Below are positions 43,498 to 64,000 of a DNA stretch of 64,000 nucleotides, piece by piece (position 1 is the first letter of the stretch; each line of letters starts with the position of its first letter). Under the pieces are notes generated by a model. It had not been told where the DNA came from and did no database searches. It saw only the letters and a program-made list of their open reading frames with translations. The translations under genes and the position numbers were made by a program. The stretch is taken from the NCBI RefSeq assembly GCF_020166435.1, contig NZ_JAINZP010000003.1:124001-188000 (forward strand), in the 5' to 3' direction. This DNA is from Pectobacterium versatile. Lineage in GTDB: Bacteria; Pseudomonadota; Gammaproteobacteria; Enterobacterales; Enterobacteriaceae.

Positions 43498-43619
43498 CAC
43501 AATTTCCTCAGTATGGGTTTGATTAACCAGTCTAAAGGGTTATGGCGTTTTTCTCTATGTCACAACGTGCCTGTGGTTTTTCATTTTGTGTCGGGGAGCG
43601 ATGGCTTGCTTTACGTTAC

Positions 43620-47360: not shown

Positions 47361-47740
47361 ACATATATTGACGAAACAAAATGGATTGTGTTTGGTAATA
47401 GTTATAAGTCTTTATTCTATCTGAATAACCAGTTGGAATTAGGGTAATAGACTGAAAGAATAGTTTGTGATAAACGCTCTGAAAATAATGATAAAAAAAT
47501 TGAAGCTAATGTAGAAATCGTGTTTGTCAGCAGAGAGTAAGTGCTGGCCGCTATATTCGATTCTATCGCGGTGTTTTATCATTGCGTTGAAACTATTGGA
47601 CGCTGAGTTATTAAATACGGGGATTAAGAACGGCAGCGTAATTAGGTGGGAGTCATTTCAAGGACAAATTGACCAAGGCTGGAAGAATCACTGGATCGCG
47701 CTACCTATCGTATCGGCAACCGAGTCGGAGAGTATTTTTC
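47361..47740 (+). promoter_or_regulatory. Leader region of the polyketide-associated cluster
   Basis: AT-rich DNA changes to GC-richer sequence around 47.6 kb. No gene is supported. Because all downstream genes share this strand with short spacing, the cluster promoter is probably here. Several AT-rich -10-like motifs exist (for example around 47490), but none can be singled out. Confidence 0.4.
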
Positions 47741-50700
47741 ATGGCAACACAAATTCTGCATTTCGATCTGGCGCAAGGACATTTGCGCACTAATTCCGCG
47801 ACATTGAATGTAACGGTCGGCGAACACAGTTTCCCTCTGATACTGCACGATGAGCATAGTTTGGCTCGCGCAGCTGCCGACAATCCCGCCTTGGGTCTGG
47901 CGGTACGGCACGGGCAACACAGCATTAGCCACTACGCGGAAATTCCCAAAGCGTGTTTTTTGCCACACCATGTCACCTTGATCAAGGTGATGGGCGAAAA
48001 AAATGGACCTTTTCACTCTTCCTTGCCTGATCTCTGCCATCTCTCTTACCACATTCCCGACGCGCATTTGCGCCGTCATGCTCGGCGTCATGTTGCACGG
48101 CTTGCCGTACGCAATGCTGGCGTCGCTTTGCCCGGTAAGCTCAGCGCAATGGGCGTTGAAGCCCTGCACTTGACTCGGGAGTTGATTGACACAGCCGATC
48201 TGCTGGTGGACGCCAATGTCATGAAAACGCCATGGGATATGGCATGCAGCATCTTGTTTTCACATCCAGAACTGGCGAATAGCCAGGCTTATGCAGCCAC
48301 CATCGTTATGAATGACCACATCGCTCCGCCTGCCGACATGGATCCTGCGCAGTACAATCGGGTCTACGAGCTGGCACTGTCGCTGTCGCGGCAGGGACCC
48401 GCGACAGCCGATGGTGGCTTTGCCCAATATAAACAGGTGGTTGATCCAGACGGCAGCAAGATGATTTATGAATTCGATTGGCTGGGAAAGGACGGGGAGG
48501 TGATTTTCCCCGCTGGCGATCCGGTCATGCAATACAACTTGTCCGTCGAGACCGAAAACGGCTGTGGTTCACCTGTGGCGAATGCGCTGAGCTCGTCGCG
48601 TAACGACCATCGCCTGCAGAACCAGAACTGGAGTGTTAGCCAGAGTCGTTCGGTGGACGTCAGCGAAGTGACGGAAGCATCACTCCGCTCCCGTCAGACC
48701 CCTGAGTTGCTCAAGGCTGGCAGCCGCTTGTGGACGGCGACGAACGCCACGCCCAATCACGGTCTTTCGGTCTATGCCGACAGCATCAGTTACAGTCCAG
48801 ATCAGCAGGTCTTTTCAATCGATTTCAAGAATACCTATCTGCGTCAGCTCGGGGTGTTCATTCAGTTTTTCAAAGATAGCAACATGCAGCAACCGATCGA
48901 CAACCCCAAGGTCAATGGTTCCTGGGCCTCTTATCTCCTGGGGAAAAACACCTTTGAAACGCCTTCGCAAAAAATGATCGATGTCCTGTGCGCTGTTAAT
49001 ACCATCATGGGTATCCCCATGCCCACAGATCCAACTAAATTTACCTTGCCTTGGCCTGGCGAAGCTCAGGCCGCCCGTTTCCTGTTCGGTGGCCTTGGCA
49101 TCTCACGATGGGAAGAGCCCATCGTGTGGCCCGGAGTGATCATGACCAGCGTATTTCAGTACGCTATTCCTAGTCTGATGATGCTCGGCGGCGCCGTGGT
49201 GAGCAGCAGCCAGTGGTTCAAGAACTTCATTTCCGACCCTGAAGTTGTGGATATTTTGGTCGGTGTCGTTTTTCCGATGATTGCCGGTGGCACTATTGCC
49301 TCGGCTGCCCTGTTTAATACCAAAAAGGTGCTGTTTATAGTTGCTGACCTGATCGTCGGTATTTTGGCCAAGAAAGGTATGGAACAACTCGCGACCTATG
49401 TCACCCTGAATTTGGCCTCAGCCGCAGCTGCACAAGCCGTTCCTGTGGTCGGCTGGGGTATTCGCCTCGCCGCTTTGGCGATAGGCGCTGCACAGATTGC
49501 CGTAACGACTGGCCAGTTGTTCTCTACGCCAGCCACGCTGGAAGTGGATATCAAGCGTCAGATGACGCTGGACTTCACCTTGAATCCCGATCCGAAGCAT
49601 GGTGAGGTAGGCAATCCATCAACAGCAATCTGGCCACCAATCGGTGCGACCTGTCAGGTGACGGTGGAGTACACCAACGGCACCTACTTTACGCAAACCC
49701 AAACCTTGCCAGCTACCAGCTCCGATACGCCACTGCTCTTCACTTTTGATAATATTGGCTGGGGCGGTACCTTGAAAATCAAGGCCAATGTCTACTCTGC
49801 CAATGGTTGGCTGGCCGGTGTCTATGCCAGCAGCTTGCTGGATGCCCAGCCGGACAGTGCTTCGAAGGGAGTCATGCGGGTGGAAGGCAATATCGAAGAG
49901 ATGTTGGTGCCGCTCACGCAGGTTACCCAGTACGATTATAGCCAGCAGTTGTCCTTCAATGCCAAGGAACAGCGCCATGAATGGATAGTCGGATCTGTGC
50001 CGACCACTACGCTCTCCGGTGCTAACTGCAGCAATGTGGGCAAAAATGTCTGCAAGCTGGTGAATATCACCCTACTGGATTCAGACTACCAGGTGGGGTA
50101 CTGCTATCAGGCGTCGGGACAGAACATACCTCTGGAAAACCCAGGAAGTTCCCCGAACAGTGGGCAGATGTATGTACTGCAGAACATTTCTACCCTGAGC
50201 AACGAGACCCTGAACCAGCGTCTTAAACAGTCTGAGACTGGTTTCACGGTGCAGCCACTGATTGCCTACAACACCTTTGGCACCGGTCCTAATGAGAAAA
50301 GCATCACGCCTTTAAACTTCATCATCGACTCGCGTTTTGGTACTTATCATCTACGCCAGGTCGATCTGCGCGACGGTAACCACACCTTTGGGCTGGTCAA
50401 GGCCAACGAATCCTGGGGCACTTTTACCATTCCTCATCTGGACGCCATGGTGGTGCATCCCAGTGGCTGCGTGATTGCCGTTAGTTGGAAGTACAGCAAG
50501 ATGCAGATCTTGCCACTGGGCTCTGGGCCGGTATCCGATGATAAGGCGCCTGCTGCACAGATGGTATCGGGGCAGGGAGTGTTGCAGGGGTTAACACATG
50601 GCCCCATTGCACTGACCGTCACGCCGGATGGTCGGATACTGCTGCTGGAAACCGGCAATACACGAGTACAAGCTTTCGATACCAAAGGCAATCCGGTGCC

Positions 50701-51763
50701 CAGTTTCACCGGCCCGACTTTATTTACCCTGAGCACGGTCGACTTTCAGCCTTCTCTCGACGCGGGACGTTTTTCGGAAGGCCTGCAAGCCGTGTTTCGG
50801 AATAATGGCCTTACTTTCTTGTTTACGAACAGCGATTCTGCATTCCTGCGCGATCTGGATGCTGGTTTGCTGAACGAACGTATTATTGCCGTCTTTGCCG
50901 AAGAAGGTATCTACCTGTGCTACAACCAGATGCCGGATGGCGCGATCGACCCTGTTGGCAGTACCCGGATTAAGGTTATTGAGAAAGGACAGCGTTGGGA
51001 GGTCATCGACCCGCAGAAACCGGTGACCTATACCCTGACCTATGCAAAGCAGGGGGTCTCGGTCTACAACGATCTGAGCGATGTTGTGGTCAAGATCATC
51101 GGCGAAGGTGTCAAATGGGTAATCGAAGATCAGACCGGTGCCAAATCATATCTGTTAACCGTGGACAAGGATCGCCCAGAAAAAATCATCGTTGCTAATT
51201 ATTTGTCGTACATGCCGTTGCATCAACCTGCGGGTATTACTTACCTGGATGTGGCGGTCGAATCCAAGGGATACATTTACGTGCTATCCCACCGTAACGA
51301 CGGGATGTCACCGTCCGACTTCATTTTGGACATCTATGAACCGGATGGCCGCTATTTGGTGTCCTCGCCGGACCCAATGTTGGTCCAGGACCCTGCAAAA
51401 CGCCAGTACCTTGCTGCTGCACGTTTGGTCGTTAACCAGTTCCGTACCCTGATTGCCCTGAACTATGGCCATTTCCAGGGGACGAATGGACGTACTGAAC
51501 CGGTGGTCAGCCAATGGAATCCGACCACGCCGCTCTTCGATCTACCGATCGATACGTTGCCTAGTTTCCAGAGACATGACATGGCTCAGATCGGCCAGAT
51601 GTTCGCTTCACATGGGCATTCACTAACGAATAAGGCTCGCATCGAAACGCTTAATGAGAGCGGTTATTTCATTGTAACTGACACGGCTACGCGCTACCCG
51701 GTCATTGCCACGATTGACAAGAACAACGAGCAGGTGATCTCCACCTACGGTTTTCCTGTCTGA
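47741..51763 (+). CDS. Large NHL-repeat protein with hydrophobic core, first gene of the PKS-linked cluster
   Basis: 1340 aa; ATG follows CGGAGAG, giving MATQILHFDLAQGH, with no signal peptide. Residues 1-460 form an uncharacterised region. Residues about 463-590 contain four Gly/Ala-rich hydrophobic segments (for example YAIPSLMMLGGAVVSSSQW and AVPVVGWGIRLAALAIGAA) suited to membrane insertion. Residues about 610-860 look beta-rich. NHL-like repeats sit around 897-993 (ALTVTPDGRILLLETGNT then RVQAFDTKGNPVPSF). Residues 1000-1155 carry a repeated LDAG and Ile/Val-x-Trp-x-Ile module that also occurs in the pentapeptide protein nearby. I recognise no characterised homologue. A membrane-interacting structural or toxin-like protein is a guess. 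Confidence 0.7.
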   Translation: MATQILHFDLAQGHLRTNSATLNVTVGEHSFPLILHDEHSLARAAADNPALGLAVRHGQHSISHYAEIPKACFLPHHVTLIKVMGEKNGPFHSSLPDLCHLSYHIPDAHLRRHARRHVARLAVRNAGVALPGKLSAMGVEALHLTRELIDTADLLVDANVMKTPWDMACSILFSHPELANSQAYAATIVMNDHIAPPADMDPAQYNRVYELALSLSRQGPATADGGFAQYKQVVDPDGSKMIYEFDWLGKDGEVIFPAGDPVMQYNLSVETENGCGSPVANALSSSRNDHRLQNQNWSVSQSRSVDVSEVTEASLRSRQTPELLKAGSRLWTATNATPNHGLSVYADSISYSPDQQVFSIDFKNTYLRQLGVFIQFFKDSNMQQPIDNPKVNGSWASYLLGKNTFETPSQKMIDVLCAVNTIMGIPMPTDPTKFTLPWPGEAQAARFLFGGLGISRWEEPIVWPGVIMTSVFQYAIPSLMMLGGAVVSSSQWFKNFISDPEVVDILVGVVFPMIAGGTIASAALFNTKKVLFIVADLIVGILAKKGMEQLATYVTLNLASAAAAQAVPVVGWGIRLAALAIGAAQIAVTTGQLFSTPATLEVDIKRQMTLDFTLNPDPKHGEVGNPSTAIWPPIGATCQVTVEYTNGTYFTQTQTLPATSSDTPLLFTFDNIGWGGTLKIKANVYSANGWLAGVYASSLLDAQPDSASKGVMRVEGNIEEMLVPLTQVTQYDYSQQLSFNAKEQRHEWIVGSVPTTTLSGANCSNVGKNVCKLVNITLLDSDYQVGYCYQASGQNIPLENPGSSPNSGQMYVLQNISTLSNETLNQRLKQSETGFTVQPLIAYNTFGTGPNEKSITPLNFIIDSRFGTYHLRQVDLRDGNHTFGLVKANESWGTFTIPHLDAMVVHPSGCVIAVSWKYSKMQILPLGSGPVSDDKAPAAQMVSGQGVLQGLTHGPIALTVTPDGRILLLETGNTRVQAFDTKGNPVPSFTGPTLFTLSTVDFQPSLDAGRFSEGLQAVFRNNGLTFLFTNSDSAFLRDLDAGLLNERIIAVFAEEGIYLCYNQMPDGAIDPVGSTRIKVIEKGQRWEVIDPQKPVTYTLTYAKQGVSVYNDLSDVVVKIIGEGVKWVIEDQTGAKSYLLTVDKDRPEKIIVANYLSYMPLHQPAGITYLDVAVESKGYIYVLSHRNDGMSPSDFILDIYEPDGRYLVSSPDPMLVQDPAKRQYLAAARLVVNQFRTLIALNYGHFQGTNGRTEPVVSQWNPTTPLFDLPIDTLPSFQRHDMAQIGQMFASHGHSLTNKARIETLNESGYFIVTDTATRYPVIATIDKNNEQVISTYGFPV

Positions 51764-51775
51764 AAGGAGCTACCT

Positions 51776-52089
51776 ATGTCGTCATTAACCATAAGTCAGG
51801 CTTTGAACAGATATTGCTCAGCCTAGGTATTTCGCTCGTAGAGGTGACCCCAACTGCCACTTTACCAACCGGAACCCGTTGGGGTCAGTTAAGTCTGGAT
51901 GAATAAAAAACGCTGGCCCCATCGAGTTCCTGACGCTGCTGGATAGTCAGACGCTGTTCATCCAGGGCAATGGTACCGATCCCGTTGTGCTGGGATACCT
52001 TGTGGCTAGACGATGGCGGACTGCTTCAGTGTGATGCCTCCGTTATCACAAATGTTCAACTTTTTACACAGGATACTTCTCATGAGTGA
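51776..52089 (+). pseudogene. Decayed gene between the NHL protein and the first Gly-rich gene
   Basis: An AAGGAGC site precedes ATG 51776, but that frame stops within 20 codons. Coding-like segments continue in other frames: FEQILLSLGISLVEVTPTAT to SLDE (frame ending at TAA 51904), then GPIEFLTLLDSQTLFIQGNG, then DDGGLLQCDASVITNVQLF ending at a TGA that overlaps the next ATG as ATGAGTGA. At least two frameshifts have broken a gene of about 100 codons. Copies of its 3' end precede each later Gly-rich gene. Confidence 0.65.
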
Positions 52090-53329
52090 CCTTAAGAGCG
52101 TTGCAGCAACCTTGGCCGAGTTGAGCCGTTCATCATATCATCTGACCGGTCTTGAAGCCCAGCCACCCTCCCTGAAAACCTCGGATTTCGCCGGGCCGGT
52201 ACTCTTTTCCGATGATCCGGCCGTTTCGTCCGTGCCGCCAGCATTCTTTACCGTGAATACCCTCCAGGAGCTCAAAGCGCTGGGTGGTGTGCCCGACAGC
52301 CAATATGGTCCGGCCGGTATGGCAGAGCACCATCCTTTGCCTGACCCGTTCGATGCGCAACGTTTGGCTAAGGTGAGCGGGAACCATGCAGACCTGTGCA
52401 AGGCATTCCGTGCCTACATGTTCGGCAATTCACAGCGTGTCAGTGACTATCAGGATATTCTCAACGCCAAGCGTTTCCCCATGCAGGTGGCGTTATTCAC
52501 GGGTAACAACCTCACCGTATCGCCCGGCAAACCGCTCATTGTTGAGGACAAGGAGGGGCATGGCAACCCAGTAGTCTTGGTTTACAGCACCATCACTGTC
52601 GAGCCGGGCGGACAAATCATTTACCGTACCAACGGCACGGTCAAAGCACAGAATATGAACGTCCAAGGCAGCTCCGGGAATAGCGCCATTGTTAATCAGG
52701 GCGGGGACGGCGGCCATGGTGCGTCTGGCAGCAGTGGTCGCAATGGTGGGAATGGTTGGCATGGTTCGAGTGGGCAAGACAATAAGAATTCCTGTGCCAG
52801 CGGCGCTTCGTCGGGTAGCAATGGCGCACCAGGAAGCGACGGGGGGCACGGGGGGGATGGATCAAAAGGGGGCAACGGCAATGATGTCAACATAGTAGTT
52901 GAGGAATTGAGCGGTAATGTCATTGCACGCTCGATCGGTGGCCAAGGGGGGGATGGTGGCTCCGGCCGCAATGGCGGCAATGGCGGCTATGGTGGCAGTG
53001 GTGGTGCATCCACCAGCCAGTGCGCTGCTGGTGATGGCGGCAATGGTGGTAAGGGTGGCAATGGCGGTAATGGTGGCGATGGCGGACAAGGTGGCAATGG
53101 CGGTAATGTCTATATCACCTATGAATCCGGCACGCCAGCGCTCAACGCTTCCGCAGTCGGTGGCACGGGAGGGCGCGGAGGAGAAGCAGGCGCTGGTGGC
53201 TCTGGGGGCGCTGGCGGGGCCGGCAGAACGAAAGGTAACTATGGCACCACTGGAAAGCAAGGCACGCCAGGCAAGGCCGGCGCGGCTGGTTTGGTTGGCA
53301 AGGTGTTTGTCAACGGCAGGCCACAGTAA
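52082..53329 (+). CDS. Glycine-rich repeat protein, copy 1
   Basis: 415 aa, starting MSDLKSVAATLAELSRSSYH after an AGGA site. Residues 1-195 are a conserved head (GLEAQPPSLKTSDFAGPVLF; ADLCKAFRAYMFGNSQRVSD), ending in strands VEPGGQIIYRTNGTVKAQNM. Residues about 200-400 are built of GGxGGN/GGD/GSG runs, interrupted by a short beta segment (NVIARSIGG) and a second one (VYITYESG). Two cysteine-containing spacers (NSCASG, SQCAAG) recur in every copy. It has no signal peptide. Such Gly-rich tracts can pack as polyglycine-II helix bundles; that structure is inferred. Function unknown. Confidence 0.75.
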   Translation: MSDLKSVAATLAELSRSSYHLTGLEAQPPSLKTSDFAGPVLFSDDPAVSSVPPAFFTVNTLQELKALGGVPDSQYGPAGMAEHHPLPDPFDAQRLAKVSGNHADLCKAFRAYMFGNSQRVSDYQDILNAKRFPMQVALFTGNNLTVSPGKPLIVEDKEGHGNPVVLVYSTITVEPGGQIIYRTNGTVKAQNMNVQGSSGNSAIVNQGGDGGHGASGSSGRNGGNGWHGSSGQDNKNSCASGASSGSNGAPGSDGGHGGDGSKGGNGNDVNIVVEELSGNVIARSIGGQGGDGGSGRNGGNGGYGGSGGASTSQCAAGDGGNGGKGGNGGNGGDGGQGGNGGNVYITYESGTPALNASAVGGTGGRGGEAGAGGSGGAGGAGRTKGNYGTTGKQGTPGKAGAAGLVGKVFVNGRPQ

Positions 53330-53343
53330 ATAGAGGCGTCGGC

Positions 53344-53605
53344 ATGAGCATAGATAGTCTGACTCAGGGTCGCAACGGTAGCCGTGGGGCGAATGGTCAG
53401 AATAGGGCGAAACCCTTGTTTAGCAAGTGCGTATCTGCCACTGCCAGTCAAGGCCTCTTCCAATGTCGGTATGAGCGGGACAGGCAAGAGTGGCGGCGTT
53501 AGTGGCATAGGCAAGCGTGGCGGCGAGAACGTTGAAGGCACCTTCGCTTTGAATGGGCAGAATGGTGTGCCTGTGCGCAGTGCCACAGGCGACGCAGGGG
53601 GATGA
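53344..53605 (+). pseudogene. Small Gly-rich ORF after copy 1, frameshifted
   Basis: It begins MSIDSLTQGRNGSRGANGQN like the two later small ORFs. The frame then diverges and stops at 53502, while another frame continues the Gly/Asn-rich composition to GQNGVPVRSATGDAGG and stops at 53605. The intact relatives end in AVS-VVHTGG or AVSLVHTGE, so this copy is broken. Confidence 0.6.
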
Positions 53606-53645
53606 GCGGTGCCGTGTCGCTTATCCACACTGGAGAATAAATGTA

Positions 53646-53848
53646 TGGCGTCCACTCGGTTGTTTGCTGGTAAATGACGGTTTGCTGGGGCTTCGGCGCG
53701 ATGGGTTACCACCCGCAGCGACGGCGTCTTCGCTCCCGTGGTACTGGCTGTCGATACCTTGCGGCTGGAAGCTAGCGGACTGCTGCAGTGTGATGCCTTC
53801 GTTATCACAAATGTTCAACTTTTTACACAGGATACTTCTCATGAGTGA
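53646..53848 (+). pseudogene. Chimeric duplication remnant upstream of copy 2
   Basis: It reads MASTRLFAGK followed by TGA (a TGG in the intact pentapeptide gene), then RFAGASARWVTTRSDGV, the head of the pentapeptide protein. This is fused to VLAVDTLRLEASGLLQCD and VITNVQLFTQDTSHE, the tail of the decayed upstream gene. The final TGA overlaps the start of copy 2. It marks a tandem-duplication junction. Confidence 0.7.
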
Positions 53849-55082
53849 CCTTAAGAGCGTTGTAGCAACCTTGGCCGAGTTGAGCCGTTCATATCATCTG
53901 ACCGGTCTTGAAGCCCAGCCACCCTCCCTGAAAACCTCGGATTTCGCCGGGCCTGTACTGTTTTCCAATGATCCGGTCGTTTCGTCCGTGCCGCCAGCAT
54001 TCTTTACCGTGAATACCCTCCAGGAGCTCAAAGCGCTGGGTGGTGTACCCGACAGCCAATATGGTCCGGCCGGCATGGCAGAACACCATCCTTTGCCTGA
54101 CCCGTTCGATGCGCAACGTTTGGTTAAGGTGAGCGGGAACCATGCAGACCTGTGCAAGGCATTCCGTGCCTACATGTTCGGCAATTCACAGCGTGTCAGT
54201 GACTATCAGGATATTCTCAACGCCAAGCGTTTCCCCATGCAGGTAGCGATATTCGTGGGTAACAACCTCACCGTATCGCCCGGCAAACCGCTCATTGTTG
54301 AGGACAAGGAGGGGCATGGCAACCCGGTAGTCGTGGTTTACGACTCCATCACTGTCGAGCCGGGCGGACAAATCATTTACCGTACCAACGGCATGGTCAA
54401 AGCACAGAATATGAACGTCCATGGTAGTTCCCAGTATGTCATCATGAATCAGGGCAAGGATGGCGTGTATGGCGTGTATGGCGCGAGTGGCGGCCATGGT
54501 GCGGAGGGGGCGAGTGGTACCCCTGGGGAGGAAAAGAAGCACACCTGCGTCACCAGTGCTACATCGGGTAGTGATGGCACGCCAGGGACACCTGGAGGGC
54601 ACGGGTCGCATGGAGCAAATGGGGGCGGAGCCCATGATGTCAACATTTCGGTTGTGGAATTGAGTGGTAATATCACTGCATTCATGAGCGGTGGCAATGG
54701 GGGGCTTGGTGGCGCTGGTGGCAATGGCGGCAATGGCGGCAATGGTGGCAATGGTGGTGCACCCACCAGCAAGTGCGCTGCTGGTGATGGCGGCAATGGT
54801 GGTAATGGGGGCAATGGCGGTAATGGTGGCGATGGTGGAAAAGGTGGCAATAGCGGTAATTTCTATGTCACCTATGAGTCCGGCAATCCATCGTTCAAAG
54901 CTTCCGCAGTCGGCGGCTTGGGAGGGCGCGGAGGTAAAGCCGGCGTTGGTGGCACTGGTGGCAATGGCGGGACCGGCAAAAAGCCAGGTAACTATGGCAT
55001 TGCTGGTAGGGCGGGCACGGGAGGCAACGGAGGCCAGGCAGGCGAGGCTGGCAAGATGTTTGTCAACAACAGGCAACAGTAA
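53841..55082 (+). CDS. Glycine-rich repeat protein, copy 2
   Basis: 413 aa, nearly identical to copy 1 over the first 195 residues (DNA differs at scattered bases) but diverged in the Gly-rich tract, which here has YGVYGASGGHGAEGASG and long GGNGGN runs before APTSKCAAGD. The head ends IIYRTNGMVKAQNMNVHGSS. Cysteine spacers TCVTSA and KCAAG align with those of copy 1. The start codon overlaps the preceding remnant's stop. The second short beta segment is FYVTYESGNPSFKAS. Confidence 0.75.
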   Translation: MSDLKSVVATLAELSRSYHLTGLEAQPPSLKTSDFAGPVLFSNDPVVSSVPPAFFTVNTLQELKALGGVPDSQYGPAGMAEHHPLPDPFDAQRLVKVSGNHADLCKAFRAYMFGNSQRVSDYQDILNAKRFPMQVAIFVGNNLTVSPGKPLIVEDKEGHGNPVVVVYDSITVEPGGQIIYRTNGMVKAQNMNVHGSSQYVIMNQGKDGVYGVYGASGGHGAEGASGTPGEEKKHTCVTSATSGSDGTPGTPGGHGSHGANGGGAHDVNISVVELSGNITAFMSGGNGGLGGAGGNGGNGGNGGNGGAPTSKCAAGDGGNGGNGGNGGNGGDGGKGGNSGNFYVTYESGNPSFKASAVGGLGGRGGKAGVGGTGGNGGTGKKPGNYGIAGRAGTGGNGGQAGEAGKMFVNNRQQ

Positions 55083-55096
55083 ATGGAGGCGTCGAC

Positions 55097-55225
55097 ATGA
55101 GCATTGATATTCTGACTCAGGGTCGCAACGGTAGCCGTGGGGCGAATGGCCAGAATGGTATGCCTGTGCGCAGTGCCACAGGCGGGATGCGCGGTGCCGT
55201 GTCGCTTGTCCACACTGGAGAATAA
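55097..55225 (+). CDS. Small Gly/Asn-rich peptide after copy 2
   Basis: 42 aa: MSIDILTQGRNGSRGANGQN followed by GMPVRSATGGMRGAVSLVHT and GE. The site TGGAGG lies 7-8 bases before the ATG. The same peptide type follows each Gly-rich gene, so it is part of the repeated cassette. It has no hydrophobic signal. Could be a minor structural partner; unknown. Confidence 0.55.
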   Translation: MSIDILTQGRNGSRGANGQNGMPVRSATGGMRGAVSLVHTGE

Positions 55226-55229
55226 ATGT

Positions 55230-55415
55230 ATGGCATCCACTCGGTTGTTTGCTGGGGCTTCGGCGCGATGGGTTACCACCCGCAGCGACGGCGTCTTCTT
55301 TCCCGTGGTGCTGGCTGTCGCCACCTTGCGGCTGGAAGATGGCGGACTGCTGCAGTGTGATGTCTCCGTTATCACACCTGTTCAACTTTTTACTCAGGAT
55401 ACTTTCCATGAGTGA
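55230..55415 (+). CDS. Chimeric 61-aa ORF at duplication junction upstream of copy 3
   Basis: Open frame MASTRLFAGASARWVTTRSD fused to a tail GLLQCDVSVITPVQLFTQD ending FHE. The first 24 residues copy the start of the pentapeptide protein; the rest copies the end of the decayed gene upstream of copy 1. A GGAG site precedes it, and its TGA overlaps the start of copy 3. It may be translated, at least as a coupling leader, but is best read as a by-product of tandem duplication. Confidence 0.5.
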   Translation: MASTRLFAGASARWVTTRSDGVFFPVVLAVATLRLEDGGLLQCDVSVITPVQLFTQDTFHE

Positions 55416-56667
55416 CCCTAAGAGCGTTGCAGCAACCGTGGCCGAGTTGAGCCGTTCATATCATCTGACCGGTCTAGAAGCCCAGCCACCCTCCCTGAAA
55501 ACCTCGGATTTCGCCGGGCCGGTACTCTTTTCCGATGATCCGGCCGCTTCGTCCGTGCCGCCAGCATTCTTTACCGTGAATACCCTCCAGGAGCTCAAAG
55601 CGCTGGGTGGTGTGCCCGACAGCCAATATGGTCCGGCCGGTATGGCAGAGCACCATCCTTTGCCTGACCCGTTCGATGCGCAACGTTTGGCTAAGGTGAG
55701 CGGGAACCATGCAGACCTGTGCAAGGCATTCCGTGCCTACATGTTCGGCAATTCACAGCGTGTCAGTGACTATCAGGATATTCTCAACGCCAAGCGTTTC
55801 CCCATGCAGGTGGCGTTATTCGCGGGTAATAACCTCACCGTATCGCCCGGCAAGCCGCTGATTGTTGAGAGCCGTGGGGTGAATGGCGACCCGGTAGTCT
55901 TGGTTTACGACACCATCACTGTCGAGCCGGGCGGAGAAATCATTTACCGTACCAACGGCACGGTCAAAGCACAGAATATGATCGTCCATGGCCGCTCCAA
56001 GAATAATCTCAACAATCATGGCGGGTTTGGTGGCCTTGGCAGCTATGGCGGGAATGGTGCCAATGGTGGGGCGGGGGTGAAGGGTTCCCCTGGGAAAGAC
56101 AATAAGAGCTACTGTGCCAGCGGTGCTACATCGGGTAGTGATGGCGCGCGAGGGACCAGCGGGGGGCACGGGGGGAATGGAGCAGAAGGGGGCGACACCC
56201 ATGATGTAAACATTTCGGTTGTGGAATTGAGTGGTGAAGTCAGTGTATCCACAATCGGTGGCGATGGGGGTGGTGGTGGTGGTGGTGGCTATGGCGGCCA
56301 TGGCGGCGATGGTGGCAATGGTGGTGCATCCACCAGCGAGTGCCCTGCCGGTGCTGGCGGCAATGGCGGCAATGGCGGTGACAGTGGCAATGGTGGTAAC
56401 GGTGGTAACGGTGGCAATGGCGGTAATATCTACATCACCTATGAGTACGGCAATCCATCGTTCAACGTTTTCGCAGTCGGCGGCAAGGGGGGCTGGGGAG
56501 GCGTATCTGGCGCTCGTGGCACTGGTGGTACTGGCGGGACCGGCAGAACGAAAGGTAGCAATGGCATTACTGGTAATTGGGGTACGGATGGCAACGGAGG
56601 CCAGGCAGGCAAGGCTGGCAAGGTGTTTGTCAACGGCATACCAGTGAGAATGGAGGCGTCGACATGA
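55408..56667 (+). CDS. Glycine-rich repeat protein, copy 3
   Basis: 419 aa. The head again matches copies 1 and 2, with local change after LIVE (SRGVNGDPVVLVYD). The Gly-rich tract is the most diverged (GGDGGGGGGGGYGGHGGDGG) with cysteine spacers SYCASG and SECPAG. Unlike the other copies, loss of the TAA stop extends the end by VRMEAST, so the TGA overlaps the next ATG as ATGA and couples it to the small ORF. The beta segment is IYITYEYGNPSFNVF. Confidence 0.75.
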   Translation: MSDPKSVAATVAELSRSYHLTGLEAQPPSLKTSDFAGPVLFSDDPAASSVPPAFFTVNTLQELKALGGVPDSQYGPAGMAEHHPLPDPFDAQRLAKVSGNHADLCKAFRAYMFGNSQRVSDYQDILNAKRFPMQVALFAGNNLTVSPGKPLIVESRGVNGDPVVLVYDTITVEPGGEIIYRTNGTVKAQNMIVHGRSKNNLNNHGGFGGLGSYGGNGANGGAGVKGSPGKDNKSYCASGATSGSDGARGTSGGHGGNGAEGGDTHDVNISVVELSGEVSVSTIGGDGGGGGGGGYGGHGGDGGNGGASTSECPAGAGGNGGNGGDSGNGGNGGNGGNGGNIYITYEYGNPSFNVFAVGGKGGWGGVSGARGTGGTGGTGRTKGSNGITGNWGTDGNGGQAGKAGKVFVNGIPVRMEAST

Positions 56668-56837
56668 GCATAGATAGTCTGATTCAGGGTCGCAGCGGTA
56701 GCAGTAGGGCCAACGGCGCCGATGCGGGTAACGGCAGCAATGGTGCGAATGGCCAGAATGGTATGCCTGTGCGCAGTGCCACAGGCGGCGCAGGGGGTAT
56801 GCGCGGTGCCGTGTCGGTTGTCCACACTGGAGGATAA
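56664..56837 (+). CDS. Small Gly/Asn-rich peptide after copy 3
   Basis: 57 aa, the longest version: MSIDSLIQGRSGSSRANGAD then AGNGSNGANGQNGMPVRSAT and GGAGGMRGAVSVVHTGG. It overlaps the copy 3 stop by four bases and ends five bases before the pentapeptide start. Relative to the copy 2 version it has an extra Gly/Asn/Ala segment in the middle. Confidence 0.55.
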   Translation: MSIDSLIQGRSGSSRANGADAGNGSNGANGQNGMPVRSATGGAGGMRGAVSVVHTGG

Positions 56838-56841
56838 ATGT

Positions 56842-59328
56842 ATGGGGTCCATTTGGTCGTTTGCAGGTAAATGGCAGTTTGCTACGGCTTCGGAGCAATG
56901 GGTTACCACCCGCAGCGACGGTGTCTTGATTCTGTCATCCAACATGGAAGATGCTTCGATGCAATGGCTTAATGCCTACGCTGAGACGTCAGGTGGTCCT
57001 CTGTGGTTACAGGGGACCAATGGGCTTTATGTGTCGAACAGCAGTGCTACACCGCAGGCTAATCAGACACGAGGCGCATCTGCGGTGGCACAGATCTCTC
57101 TTGAGACAAACGACTCGGGCGCTTTTCGCTTGCGACGACTCGGGACCACGGCGGACAGCTATCTGAGCGCTGCCGGTAACACTTTGCAGTGGGTTCCTGT
57201 ATCGACATCGCCGTCGGCTTCGACGTTGTTCACTCGTGTTGAGATCACGCCAGCGTTGACGGTGATCCAGAGATTCGGTGCCATGGGCGGGAATCTTCGC
57301 CATGCCTGGCTTTCTGAAGAAAATCTTAACAAGTGTGCCCTGATGGCCGCCGATCTGTCCGATGCCAACCTGCAAGGTGCCACGCTTGCTGGCGCTAAGC
57401 TTGCTGGTGCCACGGTGAACCGTACCCTGTTTGTCGGGTGCGACCTTGGTAAGACAGACATGGGCGGTATTAGTGGAACGAAAGCCCGTTTCGACGCTGT
57501 GACATTGGGCGGTGGTACATCCCTGATGGCAGCCAATTTGCCAGAAGCGGTATTTCGCGGCTGTAATGCGGTGGGCTCGGCTGTAATGACCGGTCTTGAG
57601 GCTCTCGGCGCCGACTTTTCCGGTGCCTCCTTACCGCGCGTTATATTGAACGATGCCAAATTGCGCGGAGCGAACCTGGTCAATGTCAACCTGGAGGGCG
57701 CGAGTCTTGCGGCTGTGGATTTAAGCAGGGCGAGCATGACGCGCGTCAACCTGCAGAAGACCACCTTGCAAAGCGCGATCTTTGTTGGTGCAACGCTGGT
57801 CGAAACCCGTTTTGACGGCGCGGACATCAATTATTGTAATTTTGCGCAGGCCGATTTGACCAATGCGCTACTATCCAAGGTGACCGGAGCGTCATCTCTG
57901 AACCTGAGTGACAGTGTTTTGATGGCCGCCAATCTGAGCGGTCTGGATCTACGCGATGCGATCATTACCGCTAATACCAACTTCACTAAGAGTGTGATGG
58001 ATGAGGTTAACCTGCACGGCAAGGCGCTTGATGGCGTGGTGTTTTACGGCGCGTCGCTGAAAAGAGCCCTGCTGGACAACACCTCGTTGAGCAACGCCGT
58101 ACTGGTTGACGCCGACCTGAGCGGGGCGACGCTTACTGGCAATATTTCCCTGGTCGGAGCAAATCTGTCGAATGCTAGTCTGGCGTATGCCGACTTGACC
58201 GGTGCCCAGTTTGGTGCGCTGTCTACGCGCGCATCGCTAGAGCGTCATCATGCCGATGCTCTGGATCAAGCAACATTGCTGGTTGAGTTTGGCGATGTGT
58301 GTGCCCAAGGGCGTGTCGTATTGTATGGAGCGCCGCGCGTTACTGTACGCCAGTCGGGGGAGGAGTGGCTGATCGAGCATGGTGGACCGCCATTGTTTGT
58401 CCGTCGTGAAGCGGAGCGTTTGGTGATCCAGCAGGCCGATGCTCGAGATGCGGCTATTCTGGCTAATGTCTTCATGCCCGACGCCATCCTGACTAATGCC
58501 AATCTTTATGCAGTAGACATGTCTGGTGTGCATTGGTACGGCAGTACCGCCCGCGCCGACAATGCCAATCTCGAGCAGGCCAATCTGTCCAGCGCCAATC
58601 TAGCCACGATGGACTTCACCCAGGCTCGGTTGTATGGTGCCAATCTCTCCTATGCCAATTTGGTCAATACCGTATTTCGCAAGGCCCGGTTGTCTCCTAC
58701 CCAAGGGCTGAAGCCCTCTTCGTTAGCTTTCGCGTCCATGCAGGGGGCAGATTTTGGTGAAGCACAGCTCGGCGGTGCCAACCTGACCAATGCCGCAGTA
58801 TCACTGGATCTCAGCGTGGCGGGTCAAACTCTGGTCGGTACACCGCTCTTTACCCTGGACAGCAACCTGTGTACGACATTGAATGCTGCCGTGGTATCTG
58901 CAGCGCTGCGCCAGGCGTTTGTCGACAGAGGCTACCCGTTGCTGGGCAATGCCACCATCACCGTGAAGCAAAACAATACCAGTTGGCTGATCGCTAATGC
59001 CCCTCCGAGCAATGACCTGAGTTACCGCGGCTACTTGCAGTTCATCATTTTGGCAGAGGAGCAGCTTGGCAGCAACGCCTTGCAGGTCTATGGCGGTGCT
59101 TCCTTGCGCATCGTGCGCACTGCAGCCGGTAATACCCTGGAACCGGTGGTGATCACCTTTGGGGCAACGGCGCAACTGCGAAGTGCCATGAATGACAGTA
59201 CTACGTGCCCGAGCGGTTTGCGCTATGCCATGCACAACAGCGGTACCACCTATGTCGACTTGATGACCAGTGGCTTGCCGCCACATCCACCTAAGTGCAT
59301 ACCGTCGCCGACCACGTGGTGCACCTGA
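56842..59328 (+). CDS. Large pentapeptide-repeat protein
   Basis: 828 aa; ATG (MGSIWSFAGKWQ) follows GGAGG by 8 bases. Residues 1-150 look like a beta-trefoil or fascin-like domain (LQGTNGLYVS; FRLRRLGTTADSYLSAAGN), low certainty. Residues about 165-455 are A(D/N)LxX pentapeptide repeats (ADLSDANLQGATLAGAKLAG and so on). Residues about 467-543 insert a module PRVTVRQSGEEWLIEHGG. A second pentapeptide block spans about 548-653. Residues 654-828 hold another copy of that module (ATITVKQNNTSWLIAN). Pentapeptide repeats form right-handed beta-helices; smaller ones mimic DNA and protect gyrase. This size and layout argue for a structural or multi-domain role. It lies 55 bp before the PKS gene. Confidence 0.8.
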   Translation: MGSIWSFAGKWQFATASEQWVTTRSDGVLILSSNMEDASMQWLNAYAETSGGPLWLQGTNGLYVSNSSATPQANQTRGASAVAQISLETNDSGAFRLRRLGTTADSYLSAAGNTLQWVPVSTSPSASTLFTRVEITPALTVIQRFGAMGGNLRHAWLSEENLNKCALMAADLSDANLQGATLAGAKLAGATVNRTLFVGCDLGKTDMGGISGTKARFDAVTLGGGTSLMAANLPEAVFRGCNAVGSAVMTGLEALGADFSGASLPRVILNDAKLRGANLVNVNLEGASLAAVDLSRASMTRVNLQKTTLQSAIFVGATLVETRFDGADINYCNFAQADLTNALLSKVTGASSLNLSDSVLMAANLSGLDLRDAIITANTNFTKSVMDEVNLHGKALDGVVFYGASLKRALLDNTSLSNAVLVDADLSGATLTGNISLVGANLSNASLAYADLTGAQFGALSTRASLERHHADALDQATLLVEFGDVCAQGRVVLYGAPRVTVRQSGEEWLIEHGGPPLFVRREAERLVIQQADARDAAILANVFMPDAILTNANLYAVDMSGVHWYGSTARADNANLEQANLSSANLATMDFTQARLYGANLSYANLVNTVFRKARLSPTQGLKPSSLAFASMQGADFGEAQLGGANLTNAAVSLDLSVAGQTLVGTPLFTLDSNLCTTLNAAVVSAALRQAFVDRGYPLLGNATITVKQNNTSWLIANAPPSNDLSYRGYLQFIILAEEQLGSNALQVYGGASLRIVRTAAGNTLEPVVITFGATAQLRSAMNDSTTCPSGLRYAMHNSGTTYVDLMTSGLPPHPPKCIPSPTTWCT

Positions 59329-59383
59329 TTCGGGCAAGAGCGAGTCCCTCTATTTATCTCACTCTAGTCCGAGGAGCCATACC

Positions 59384-62300
59384 ATGACCGAACGCCACGA
59401 ATCTTGCCTAAACATGTCCATTGCCATCATTGGTATGGGATGCCGCTTCCCCGGTGGTGCCAACTCCCCCGAGCGATACTGGCAGTTGTTAATGAGCGGG
59501 ACTGACCCTATAACGCCTATCCCGCCTGTACGGTGGTCCAGTGAGGCATACAGCGCCAGAGATCGTAATCTTCCTGGGCGCTCGGTCGCCAAGGAGGGGG
59601 GATTCCTCGATGATGTGGCGGGATTTGATCCGGGGATGTTCGGCATCAGTAGTAGCGAAGCGGCGTTCATCGATCCCCAACACCGCCTGATGCTGCAAAC
59701 AAGCCGGGAGGCATTGGAAAGTGCCAGAATCGTGCCGTCCAGTCTGGCTGGCAGTGCGACCGGGGTATATGTAGGAGCCTTTACCCACGACTACCTGCAT
59801 ATGCAACTTACCGATTTGCGTGAGGCATCGGGATACACCTCCACCGGAGCGATGGGGACCATGGCATCCAGCCGCGTATCGTATGCCTTTGACTTGCGCG
59901 GACCGTCCATGACGCTGGATACGGCCTGCTCCTCCTCCTTGCTGGCCGTTCATCTGGCATGTGAGAGTCTGCGCCGAGGCGAGAGCCATCTAGCCCTGGC
60001 TGGGGGCTGCCAGTTGATGCTGATCCCCGATTTTTGTGTTGCGGAAAGCCGCACTGGGTTTCTGTCGTTGAGTAATCGCTGTCACAGTTTTTCGGCAGCA
60101 GCGGATGGCTATGTGCGCAGTGAAGGGATCGGAGTGGTGGTCCTCAAACCCTTGGTGGCTGCACTGCGTGACGGTAATCCTGTATTGGCCGTCATTCGTG
60201 GAAGCGCCTCCAATCAGGATGGCCGCACGCCTACCATTACCCAGCCCAACGTGCATGCCCAGCAAGCGGTGATTCGTGCCGCGTGCGACAATGCCGGTAT
60301 TGCTGCGTCTGAATTGGATTATGTCGAGGCGCATGGCACCGGAACACCGGTTGGCGATCCGATTGAAGCTGAAGCGATCGGCACAGTGTGCCGCAAAGAG
60401 GACGGCAGCAACCGGGTTTTGCTGGTGGGATCATGCAAATCGGTCATTGGGCACACTGAAGCGGCGGCAGGAATTGCCGGTCTGATCAAAACGGTGTTGT
60501 GTCTGCAGCATCGGCGAGTGCCGGGCAATCTGCATTCACTGCCCCCTAATCCTAATATCGCGTTCGACGACTTGTCACTCAAGGTGCCCGACCAACCCGA
60601 GCCTTTGCCTGTCGGTCGTTGTCTGGCCGGTGTCAATTCATTCGGCTTTGGTGGCACCAACGTACATGTGGTATTGGAAACTGCACCGCCTGCTATGCCC
60701 GTAGACTATGTCAGCCCTGTTGCTGGCCGGGCTGGGATCTTGCCCCTGACCGCCCACTCGCCCGAGTCGCTTAAGCAACTCGGAGAACAGCTTGCTGGTG
60801 TGCTGGAGCGACCTGGTGTGACACCGCAGGACATGGCATACAGCTGTGCACTGACCCGCGATAGATTGCCCTTGCGCAAAGGGATCGCCTTTACCTCACG
60901 CGATGATTTACTTGCCAAACTGCACCATGTGACGCCATGCAGTGCTGGAGCGCAGATGGGGCGGTTGGCCTGGGTGTTCCCTGGGCTGGGAACCACCCAT
61001 TGGGCCATGGCAGTCGCTACGCTGGAGAAGGAATCGGTCTTTGCCGAAACCTTCGGGCGTTGCGCGGCTCTGTGGCGGTCTCTGTCCGGCGAGTCATTGT
61101 ATGCCTTGCTGCAGGCCCCGGGGGAGGTCCGGAGCCAGGTTGTACAATTCAGTGTTCAGGTGGCACTGGCGAAGCAGTGGCAAGCATGGGGAATCCAGCC
61201 TGCTGCTGTACTGGGGCACAGCGCTGGCGAAGTTGCCGCCTTTCATCTGGCTGGCGTTTACGACCTTGAGCAATCGATAAGTTTGCTGTACTGGCGTTGT
61301 AGGGTGCTTGATAGCGTCGCTACAGATGGCGGAATGTTAGTCGTCGCTGCAGGGCGTGAACAGATCGGAGAGATTCTGGCGCAGCATCCGGCGGGTTGTG
61401 CAGTTGGCATTGCTGGAAGCAACGGACCGCGTAGTTGCGTATTGTCAGGAGGATCTGATGCCTTGCGTACTCTGGCCGGGGTCCTTAAACAGCATCGATT
61501 GGCCAGTCGCCCCATTTCTGGAAGGCTGGCCTTTCATTCGACTCAGTTGGAAGGAATACGCCATGCATTGACGGAGGACGCTGAGCGACTGTCGGCATCG
61601 CTTCCGTCGCTGCCGCTGTTTTCATCGGTTAGCGGCACCGCTATCGAGCAGGCTGTGGGCGGCAAATACTGGGCCGCTAATCTGATCGATCCCTTCCAGT
61701 TTGACCGTGCGCTGGACGTGTTGCTGAGGGCGGGCTATCACCACGTGTTGGAGGTATCGCCAACAAGCGTACTGTCTGGGGTGCTTACTAAGGCTGTGCA
61801 GCCATACCGCGGCAAGGTATTTGCCTGTCGGGCAGGGAAAGACTGGAACGATGTGCTTGGCGAGCTGTTTGATGCTGGTCACGAGCCGGATTGGCACGCG
61901 TTGTTTCCCGGTGCGCAGTATATCGACCTGCCAAGTTACCCATGGAATTCCACGCCGCACTGGCGAGAACCTTCGAGCAGTCGTGAACGGCGGCTTCGTC
62001 CCCGCGCTGGGGCCTTGTTGGGAGAGAAGCTCAAAGGCGCTGGAGATGCTTGGGAGTCGGAGGTGATTCCCGAGCAGCATCCTTGGTTGGCGGACCATAA
62101 AGTGTTGGATGAAATCATGTTTCCCGCGGCAGGATATCTGGAAATGATTCTGGCTGCGGCTCGTGAAGTGTTTACGGTAGGAGAAATTCAGGTTCGGTCG
62201 CTGGAATTGACCTATGCCCTGACGCTAGAACCAAGACAGGCCTGCCGCTTTCAAACCTTCCTAAATAGGGCTACCGGGGACGTGCAGATTCACGCCACGA

Positions 62301-64000
62301 AAACAGGGGGAGAACCCCTGTATCAGATAGTAGCTCGCGCTAGCTTGTGTAGTATTCCGGCAGGCATACAGGCTGTCATGTCGTATGCAGATCAAAATGC
62401 GGTAGGCGTGCGCTATCCCATCCAGTTGCTGAGGGCCTCGCTGTATGACGCTTTCGCCATGATGCGATATAGCTATGGCCCGACTTTCCAAACGTTGCGT
62501 GAGGCATATGTTGGGGATCAGGAAGTGGTGTGCCATCTTGATCTACCCGATCCCCCCGAGGGGATGGTGTTCCACCCCGCAGCCCTTGATGGTGTATTTC
62601 AATGCGTGCTGGTGTGTGATGCTCCAGGGACAACCGAGCTGCTTCCGGCAAGCCAATTCACAATACCAGTGAGCGTAAGTTGTGTGCACCTTTTTGGCGT
62701 ATTGCGTGGACCCGTCACGGTATATGCCACCAAGAAACGGGTAGGGAACGGTGAATGGCAAGGATGGATGTCGGTCTACTCGGCTGGCGGCGACCTGCTC
62801 TGTCGTGTTGATGCTTTCCGCGTTCGGCTGGCTGGCTCTTTGCAGCGCGAGATCTCCACCCTTAAGACGTGTCGTCTGGAATGGGTGGCGGTACCTGCCA
62901 TCACCCAGTCAGCAGGCATACGCCATTGGGCAATTGTGGGGAATGGCGAGTGGACGAGGGCATTGGCCGCAGAGCTGGATCGCCGGGCTACCCAAGTGTG
63001 CCAGATGAAATTTCCTCAGACCACTGATGGCGTGATGCAGTTGGTAGAGCAAATTCCAGTGGAAACTGAGGCCATCTTACTTGTGCCGCCTCAGCCAATC
63101 TCGCAGGACGTTACTCATCAACTCATCCGGCTGTGCCAGTTGCTGGCGGTGCGTCCTGATGTGCCGCGGCTCTGGGTCATGACACGTAATCTCTACTCGC
63201 CTTCTGGGGGCAACCCGGAGAGCGATCTTAGGGGGGCGGGACTATGGGGGATGTTGCGGGTCATCGGTCAGCAGGAAGCGCCCGGCCTTTGGGGAGGGGC
63301 AGTGGATGTCGATGATGCTAGCACTGTTTCCAGTCTCTGGGATGCGATTTTGTGTGATGACGGAGAGGACCAGATCGTGCTGCGAGATGCAGAGCGTTAT
63401 GTAGCACGCCTTCGTGAGGTTGAGGAGGAAGGCTGTCGATTGCCGCCGTCATTTCGCTGCGATGGTGCCTATGTTATCACCGGTGCTTTGGGGGATATCG
63501 GCTCGGTCGTGACAAGATGGATGGTGGAACGTGGAGCGCGTCATTTGTTGCTCTTGGGGCGAAGGCCGGTGCTGGGAGCCGAGGATGAGGCACGGTTGTC
63601 GACGCTTAGGGCTCTCGGGGCCGAGATGGTGTACCTGAGTGTCGATCTGGCCGATGCCTCTGCTACCGAGGCTGCCCTAAGGCAATATCGTCAGGCTTCG
63701 GGGTTGCCGCTCCTAGGGTTAATGCATTGTGCTGCGTATGTTGAAGACCAGCGCTTACCGGAGCTCGATCCTGCGGTGTTTGACCAAGTGTTTGCTGCTA
63801 AGGCACAGTCGGCATGGACCTTGCACAGTGCCATGCTCAATGATCCGCTTGAACACTTCGTCCTCTTTTCTTCGCTTGGATCTTTGGTTGCGTTGCCTGG
63901 GATGGCGGCCTACGCTGCGGCTAATTCTGCGCTGGATCATCTGGCGCTCTGGCGTCGTCGGCAAGGTTTACCAGCGCTGGCCTTGAACTGGGGGCCTTGG
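59384..64000 (+). CDS. Type I polyketide synthase, KS-AT-DH-KR visible (3' end outside window)
   Basis: Open from ATG 59384 (after GAGGAG) to the window end, 1539 codons. KS (about 10-432): catalytic Cys182 in DTACSSSL, His317 in EAHGTGTPVGDP, His357 in VIGHTEAAAG. AT (about 525-820): Ser613 in GHSAGE; the LAFHS motif resembles malonyl-specific HAFH. DH (about 870-1150): His905 in DHKVLDEIMFP, where the usual Gly of HxxxGxxxxP is Asp909; Asp1069 and Gln1073 in LDGVFQ. KR (about 1360 onward): TGALGDIG, Ser1497, Tyr1510 in AAYAAAN. No loading module, methyltransferase or ER precedes KR; an ACP is expected just beyond. It would make a reduced or unsaturated polyketide, perhaps iteratively. Confidence 0.92.
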   Translation, partial: MTERHESCLNMSIAIIGMGCRFPGGANSPERYWQLLMSGTDPITPIPPVRWSSEAYSARDRNLPGRSVAKEGGFLDDVAGFDPGMFGISSSEAAFIDPQHRLMLQTSREALESARIVPSSLAGSATGVYVGAFTHDYLHMQLTDLREASGYTSTGAMGTMASSRVSYAFDLRGPSMTLDTACSSSLLAVHLACESLRRGESHLALAGGCQLMLIPDFCVAESRTGFLSLSNRCHSFSAAADGYVRSEGIGVVVLKPLVAALRDGNPVLAVIRGSASNQDGRTPTITQPNVHAQQAVIRAACDNAGIAASELDYVEAHGTGTPVGDPIEAEAIGTVCRKEDGSNRVLLVGSCKSVIGHTEAAAGIAGLIKTVLCLQHRRVPGNLHSLPPNPNIAFDDLSLKVPDQPEPLPVGRCLAGVNSFGFGGTNVHVVLETAPPAMPVDYVSPVAGRAGILPLTAHSPESLKQLGEQLAGVLERPGVTPQDMAYSCALTRDRLPLRKGIAFTSRDDLLAKLHHVTPCSAGAQMGRLAWVFPGLGTTHWAMAVATLEKESVFAETFGRCAALWRSLSGESLYALLQAPGEVRSQVVQFSVQVALAKQWQAWGIQPAAVLGHSAGEVAAFHLAGVYDLEQSISLLYWRCRVLDSVATDGGMLVVAAGREQIGEILAQHPAGCAVGIAGSNGPRSCVLSGGSDALRTLAGVLKQHRLASRPISGRLAFHSTQLEGIRHALTEDAERLSASLPSLPLFSSVSGTAIEQAVGGKYWAANLIDPFQFDRALDVLLRAGYHHVLEVSPTSVLSGVLTKAVQPYRGKVFACRAGKDWNDVLGELFDAGHEPDWHALFPGAQYIDLPSYPWNSTPHWREPSSSRERRLRPRAGALLGEKLKGAGDAWESEVIPEQHPWLADHKVLDEIMFPAAGYLEMILAAAREVFTVGEIQVRSLELTYALTLEPRQACRFQTFLNRATGDVQIHATKTGGEPLYQIVARASLCSIPAGIQAVMSYADQNAVGVRYPIQLLRASLYDAFAMMRYSYGPTFQTLREAYVGDQEVVCHLDLPDPPEGMVFHPAALDGVFQCVLVCDAPGTTELLPASQFTIPVSVSCVHLFGVLRGPVTVYATKKRVGNGEWQGWMSVYSAGGDLLCRVDAFRVRLAGSLQREISTLKTCRLEWVAVPAITQSAGIRHWAIVGNGEWTRALAAELDRRATQVCQMKFPQTTDGVMQLVEQIPVETEAILLVPPQPISQDVTHQLIRLCQLLAVRPDVPRLWVMTRNLYSPSGGNPESDLRGAGLWGMLRVIGQQEAPGLWGGAVDVDDASTVSSLWDAILCDDGEDQIVLRDAERYVARLREVEEEGCRLPPSFRCDGAYVITGALGDIGSVVTRWMVERGARHLLLLGRRPVLGAEDEARLSTLRALGAEMVYLSVDLADASATEAALRQYRQASGLPLLGLMHCAAYVEDQRLPELDPAVFDQVFAAKAQSAWTLHSAMLNDPLEHFVLFSSLGSLVALPGMAAYAAANSALDHLALWRRRQGLPALALNWGPW

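Follow-up and report, generated by a model that had tools for sequence, protein, structure and literature searches.

Giant repeat proteins encoded beside a type I polyketide synthase in a Pectobacterium versatile genomic island and at conserved loci of Photorhabdus and Xenorhabdus

In Photorhabdus, a nonribosomal peptide synthetase cluster for a gyrase inhibitor (speirobactin) encodes a 251-amino-acid pentapeptide-repeat protein (PRP), which is proposed as a self-resistance protein in the available text of its description (PMC12406682), and the available text of another source proposes polyglycine-II bundles as surface modules of PE_PGRS proteins (PMC7550000). Here, a locus of Pectobacterium versatile that encodes pentapeptide repeats and predicted polyglycine-II bundles next to a type I polyketide synthase (PKS) was analyzed. 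The window, i.e., the whole 64,000-nucleotide stretch that was analyzed (contig C23:124001-188000 in a 4.83-Mb genome), contains a block of six genes at 47741-64492, the last coordinate being extended beyond the window (L007). They encode an NHL-type giant protein, three glycine-rich (Gly) proteins, a PRP, and the PKS (Table 1). Judged from sequence conservation, the PKS and the large repeat proteins almost certainly form a real, functionally linked unit. The literature covered, which comprises few subscription papers, no supplements, and partial texts that include PMC9177418, PMC2717986, and PMC4971723, contains no description of this cluster. In its available part, a table in PMC4971723 lists one or two PKS clusters per strain among strains carrying the block without naming the cluster, which may thus have been counted there without description.

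The unit was recognized by its recurrence. A two-row alignment of the NHL-type protein was needed as the query against named species genomes, as the single protein returned no loci; it identified 11 loci, seven in Photorhabdus and four in Xenorhabdus. All 11 show the gene order NHL, Gly, a short second Gly-rich gene (Gly2), PRP, and then PKS. The PKS gene directly follows the PRP gene in eight of them and is separated from it by one or two Gly genes in three, and five Photorhabdus loci possess 1-5 additional upstream Gly genes. The block is also carried by the megaplasmid of Xenorhabdus bovienii CS03, in which NHL, Gly, and Gly2 are annotated as "hypothetical protein", and a single lucky neighborhood is ruled out by these occurrences. 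Together with a locus of another enterobacterium (G294) that has a different PKS, the NHL/Gly/PRP/type I PKS unit was found at 13 loci besides the window. The proteins of Xenorhabdus griffiniae share 68% (NHL), 55% (PRP), and 51% (PKS) identity with those of the window; G177 and X. griffiniae VH1 are not independent of each other, nor are G374 and Photorhabdus khanii NC19. Median dN/dS values among the 11 loci were 0.105 for NHL (55/55 pairs), 0.108 for PRP (54/55), 0.205 for Gly and 0.196 for Gly2 (54/55 each), and, among 10 loci with P. khanii left out and two others partial, 0.111 for PKS (42/45 pairs). By these sequence ratios, all five genes are under purifying selection. Because the order is conserved at 11 of 11 other loci and the median dN/dS is 0.10-0.21 within Photorhabdus and Xenorhabdus, the unit is more than a chance assembly, and the preliminary description of the window as holding one unit of uncharacterized composition is borne out.

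Linkage of the Gly genes to a PKS was examined in 13 genomes selected for possession of the family. Of the 48 matches, 38 were full Gly N-domains (1-6 full Gly genes per genome) and the other 10 fell on the tail within the NHL frame. Thirty-seven of the 38 Gly genes were located at the PKS locus, and the 38th lies on a separate contig of a draft genome, beside the usual flank genes. In the unbiased order, class, and phylum samples, the Gly N-domain was detected only in the genome of the window (G000), G177, and G506, a member of another family, each time adjoining a PKS; no Gly gene was found away from a PKS. The alternative considered in the preliminary description, that the non-PKS genes occur widely without a PKS neighbor, is therefore not what these genomes present. 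The distribution itself is narrow. Among the 247 genomes of the order-level search, the same two gave both NHL and Gly N-domain matches, and the family-level search yielded 4/198 genomes. The NHL profile matched 5/321 class genomes, namely the window's own and four with NHL-repeat matches of only 49-55 positions, and the Gly profile matched 2/303 class and 2/299 phylum genomes, by which broad spread is ruled out. The region downstream of the PKS was compared at eight loci and in P. khanii, with P. heterorhabditis left out. The same housekeeping-type genes are present there in five of six Photorhabdus, reached directly (P. khanii), past one Gly gene (P. thracensis and P. namnaonensis), or past unrelated open reading frames (ORFs; P. 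asymbiotica and P. australis), and transposase, recombinase, or other unrelated ORFs follow the PKS in P. tasmaniensis and three Xenorhabdus. Further acyl carrier protein (ACP), thioesterase (TE), transport, and regulator genes had been anticipated; the ACP turned out to be inside the PKS, and no TE, transporter, or regulator common to the flanks was seen by eye. Genes resembling those of amino-aromatic (chorismate-based) biosynthesis and an MFS-type exporter gene stand beside the block in P. thracensis (L030 180-8634) and P. tasmaniensis (L038 25-7567).

The window PKS contains ketosynthase (KS), acyltransferase (AT), dehydratase (DH; PF14765/PF21089), ketoreductase (KR; PF08659, E 3.5e-52), and ACP domains according to Pfam. 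It possesses the motifs TACSSSL, EAHGTGT, GHTEAAAG, GHSAG, and GIDSL, which we take to be the active sites of KS (Cys/His/His), AT (GHSxG), and ACP (DSL). An active-site motif of KR is present as well. The His and Asp regions of DH could be read, with D in the window versus G in X. griffiniae within the His motif. Neither an enoyl reductase (ER) nor a TE was found in this PKS, and Pfam revealed no TE in the six window proteins, the flanks being inspected by eye only; a TE is not required for the type I PKS class. For the AT motif, the window has AFHS and 11 of 12 Photorhabdus/Xenorhabdus rows have ASHS (X. griffiniae twice; P. namnaonensis with no match), which, under the usual motif rule, suggests malonyl units in the window versus methylmalonyl units in the other two genera.

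The start codon of the NHL gene (ATG at 47741) aligns with that of the 68%-identical homolog. The initial assignment of its product as an NHL-repeat protein finds some support at the profile level, where the family profile matches the TRIM71/Thin NHL domains with an E-value of 8e-12 (profile positions 907-991), but falls short of the Pfam NHL cut-off (13.6 bits versus 20; 19.2 versus 20 for the G294 copy). Marginal hydrophobic stretches occur around residues 496-584 in the window and near residues 500-525 in 11 of the 12 window/Photorhabdus/Xenorhabdus homologs and one of the two G294 copies. The C-terminal NHL tail and a portion of the Gly N-domain are homologous, the tail matches lying within the NHL frame in 10/10 Photorhabdus/Xenorhabdus genomes. 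The three window Gly proteins contain no Pfam family at E 0.1 and no NCBIfam family, and neither database at E 0.1 gave a named toxin family in the NHL or Gly proteins. Structure modeling predicts that the Gly domain folds as a polyglycine-II bundle. The three window Gly genes share 94-97% nucleotide identity in the N-domain versus 75-78% in the bundle (dS 0.04-0.08 versus 0.25-0.43), a contrast that would reflect either N-domain conversion or faster bundle change. Gly2 (217-223 amino acids) is Gly-rich by reading, and one of two tested copies weakly matches the Pfam collagen repeat.

Two deeper relatives extend the comparison. In G294, two NHL homologs, a PRP homolog, and four Gly-type genes, two with BLAST alignments, are located beside a 4580-amino-acid synthase with AMP-binding, three KS, KR, ACP, and one AT domain, as scanned in five pieces whose borders can hide domains; this synthase is flanked by acyl-CoA dehydrogenase, HAD-type (FkbH-like by reading), and 3HCDH genes. 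In G506, two aligned Gly N-domain genes and more Gly-rich ORFs stand beside a PKS with the organization AMP-binding-KS-AT-KR-ACP-TE, and an Asp hydroxylase gene also adjoins them; no NHL or PRP matches (PRP by blastp) were obtained in that stretch. A similar set, in which large hypothetical proteins come after a DUF6603 protein, was also noted on Paenibacillus and Streptomyces plasmids (L071 and L072), and the literature search returned no paper containing the word DUF6603.

Based on these data, a possible mode of action can be proposed, which we offer tentatively and regard as far from settled: the block could be a mobile, self-contained polyketide-protein system in which large, probably externally acting proteins carry or wear a short PKS product. 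Having KR and DH but neither ER nor TE, the window PKS may build on its own ACP a short acyl chain that is hydroxylated or unsaturated, and this chain could be transferred in trans or slowly hydrolyzed off. Made without signal peptides, the large proteins may assemble through the domain common to the NHL tail and the Gly N-domain, a shared packing suggested by the homology of these two parts. They could then bind, carry, or be decorated with the PKS product, while the Gly proteins would serve as variable tips that recognize a partner outside the cell; action on an animal host or on competitors is a likely use. Carrying would fit the whole set better than covalent decoration, since the TE of the G506 PKS points to a free chain in that case. 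A broader generalization is somewhat less probable again and should be taken as doubtful: a large extracellular protein machine may owe its non-protein component to a dedicated PKS. Interchangeable PKSs (with malonyl-like AT in the window, methylmalonyl-like AT in Photorhabdus/Xenorhabdus, and different architectures in G294 and G506) would then provide a range of chains, and the variable polyglycine-II proteins a range of targets.

Several observations weigh against the proposal of a polyketide-carrying protein system. The window copy shows decay, with a truncated NHL tail, no intact Gly2, and an upstream region that is dissimilar to that common to the homologs and holds an insertion sequence (IS)-type fragment; the copy may be failing, but all six reading frames of the block are open. 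Within Photorhabdus and Xenorhabdus, distances of the PKS (first 900 residues) correlate poorly with those of NHL (r 0.21), Gly (-0.01), Gly2 (0.07), and PRP (0.38), and NHL versus PRP gave an r of only 0.24, so the parts would have been exchanged separately; Gly and Gly2 behave as a tight pair (r 0.93). In P. namnaonensis, the PKS shares 81-83% identity with all others and the NHL protein 95% with its P. asymbiotica counterpart, which points to exchange of the PKS on its own. The structure model of the NHL protein is without confidence (mean pLDDT 46). The G506 PKS carries its own TE, and its chain is therefore probably released free. The other large proteins of G506 form a DUF6603 set, and the sets of this kind in two plasmid stretches have no PKS; G506 is weaker support for that reason.

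The competing explanation that survives best, although we consider it unlikely, is an ordinary antibiotic cluster in which the PKS makes a free, gyrase-acting molecule, the PRP confers self-immunity, and the NHL and Gly proteins help in export or storage. The Photorhabdus gyrase-inhibitor cluster provides a precedent, as far as its available text goes (PMC12406682), the TE of G506 would allow free release, and the PRP, whose pentapeptide repeats are clear in Pfam (E 1.5e-59), scores 78 bits with the Qnr model. That score is below the curated cut-off of 240, as are those with MfpA (64.6 versus 360), HetL (146 versus 260), and the effector PipB (104.6 versus 274); the Qnr match is generic, since scores with other PRP models equal or exceed it. 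In addition, the PRP has 828 amino acids, far more than the 251 of the precedent, and an extra N-terminal domain (~135 amino acids) for which no significant solved relative was found by sequence. Its predicted net charge of -10.8 is mild for a DNA mimic, the G506 stretch gave no PRP match by blastp, and immunity by the PRP alone leaves the 1-6 Gly genes per genome unexplained.

Less probable than the antibiotic cluster is a surface or matrix material, in which the repeat proteins would form an extracellular coat or adhesive layer with the polyketide as lipid anchor or pigment. The surface role proposed for PE_PGRS bundles in the available text of PMC7550000 and the variable number of full Gly genes agree with it, whereas the six window proteins contain no secretion domain in Pfam. 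They also lack a signal-peptide-like start by hydropathy: the absence of signal peptides stated in the preliminary description agrees with a simple hydropathy test only, in which no N-terminal stretch reached a Kyte-Doolittle value of 1.6 over 19 residues (PKS from the ninth residue).

A protein toxin complex with dedicated acylation, in which the PKS product is placed covalently on the NHL or Gly protein and activates a membrane-active NHL protein, ranks marginally lower. It would account for the lack of a TE in the window PKS and for the hydrophobic stretches near NHL residues 500-525, and its owners Photorhabdus and Xenorhabdus are insect-pathogenic genera according to the available texts. 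These stretches are weak, however, and fall in a part of the NHL protein modeled without confidence; no common acyltransferase gene besides the PKS was seen in the flanks by eye, and no known toxin family was matched in Pfam, NCBIfam, or profile searches. The probability of this explanation was lowered slightly by the TE in the G506 PKS. Finally, that the genes are co-passengers merely sharing transport on mobile DNA is very improbable: the window block does lie between IS-type fragments at a site taking other inserts, the Xenorhabdus copies lie among mobile genes, and the gene distances are poorly correlated, but the order is kept at unrelated sites across 50-68% identity, purifying selection acts on all five genes, and a second deep lineage has a different PKS.

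As to the architecture of the window, the ORFs were confirmed to lie all on the forward strand, as described initially. The gaps are not short, as had been claimed: those among the non-PKS genes measure 318, 511, 325, and 174 nt and contain relics of duplicated genes, and 55 nt precede the PKS. The good ribosome sites agree with inspection by eye only, GAGGAG ahead of the PKS ATG being one of them. On sequence grounds, the simplest account of the relics is that a unit of NHL tail, Gly, and PRP start was tandemly duplicated twice. A PRP fragment between a Gly gene and the PKS in P. khanii (L044:2951-3229) is a window-like tandem-duplication scar.

The block lies in an insertion. By blastn, homology to a genus relative (G767) ends at 43596-43735 and returns at 65746, at the start of a thiamine pyrophosphate (TPP) riboswitch. 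In the 15 of 25 genus genomes used for flank spacing, the window's own included, both flanks are present in all 15, spaced by ~1.1-1.3 kb in seven, 22.7 kb in the window, 51 kb in G758, and 0.45-9.4 kb in the other six; the NHL gene occurs in one of the 25. The site looks like an insertion hot spot, since G758 carries a different 51-kb insert at the same place, inside which a PAAR-like ORF was noted by reading. To the right of the PKS follow an IS-type element (IS3 by reading) with an integrase-core ORF, and the TPP riboswitch (extended 65745-65842; L007:6745-6842) before thiamine-type (thiM-like) genes; continuation of the cluster rightward is thus ruled out, as is a known cluster with its remaining genes there, which the preliminary description had considered. 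A second trace left of the operon (44418-44766, ~350 bp) is 90% identical to the part of this element at extended 64789-65141. The low-GC left part of the island contains a 164-amino-acid ORF with a signal-peptide-like start (45231-45725, reverse strand), and a match to the small RNA CyaR/RyeE lies downstream of the island (L007:9645-9729). Elsewhere in the genome, contig G000:C31 (L009, 11895 bases) has a KS-bearing 641-amino-acid ORF after a 1062-amino-acid ORF, followed by TE-like and transporter-like ORFs, by reading another biosynthetic cluster.

Table 1. Coordinates of the genes, relics, and island features (window numbering)
Feature	Position	Strand	Remark
NHL-type giant protein, 1340 aa	47741..51763	+	68% identical to Xenorhabdus griffiniae homolog
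Gly-rich protein A, 415 aa	52082..53329	+	conserved N-domain and predicted polyglycine-II bundle
Gly-rich protein B, 413 aa	53841..55082	+	
Gly-rich protein C, 419 aa	55408..56667	+	
PRP, 828 aa	56842..59328	+	conserved N-terminal domain, ~135 aa
Type I PKS (KS-AT-DH-KR-ACP), 1702 aa	59384..64492 (extended; L007:5492)	+	runs 492 bases beyond the window
Broken relic of the NHL C-terminal tail known from homologs	51787..52086	+	30% over 139 positions, interrupted
Relics of PRP start (53645-53734) and NHL tail (53717-53845)	53645..53845	+	from tandem duplication
Relics of PRP start (55248-55301) and NHL tail (55302-55412)	55218..55412	+	
Possible relic of short Gly2 gene, intact in homologous loci	56664..56828	+	weak, E 0.11
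Insertion (genomic island), ~22 kb	43597..65745 (right end extended)		blastn against G767 site; flank spacing in 15 genus genomes
Fragment just upstream of the operon	47522..47669		76% identical to end of right-hand IS-type element (extended 65387-65538)

Unlike enzyme-dominated natural-product clusters, this locus has one PKS outnumbered by giant repeat proteins that have no recognized enzyme domain, a ratio that is conserved. Should the product be carried or worn by the proteins, the locus would represent a route for bacterial delivery of a polyketide on protein. A Gly-rich family that matches no Pfam or NCBIfam family is also placed in a context for the first time. Because the block is kept in insect-killing bacteria, its proteins and the polyketide probably act jointly.

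Parts of the locus resemble known systems and also depart from them. The best solved relative of the PKS by sequence is 9d2z (E 9.1e-215; best stretch residues 6-1145), and like the mycocerosic-acid-synthase-like, single-module type I PKSs without TE, it has no TE; it differs in that no ER was found and that its neighbors are repeat proteins rather than lipid-assembly enzymes. In domain order and size only, it also resembles the 6-methylsalicylate-synthase type (KS-AT-DH/TH-KR-ACP, ~1700 amino acids). The PRP shares with Qnr/McbG-type immunity proteins and speirobactin gene E the pentapeptide repeats, which in Photorhabdus stand beside a biosynthetic gene, and is set apart by its length, its extra N-terminal domain, and a score below the Qnr cut-off. 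The polyglycine-II helix bundle predicted for the Gly proteins is the feature of PE_PGRS proteins and of snow flea and springtail antifreeze proteins; in contrast to PE_PGRS, the Gly proteins have no PE domain (no Pfam family at E 0.1), and their genes adjoin a PKS. The DUF6603 gene sets of Paenibacillus and Streptomyces plasmids are similar in that such a set adjoins Gly and PKS genes in G506, and differ in that no PKS is annotated in the two plasmid stretches and that DUF6603 is absent from the window block.
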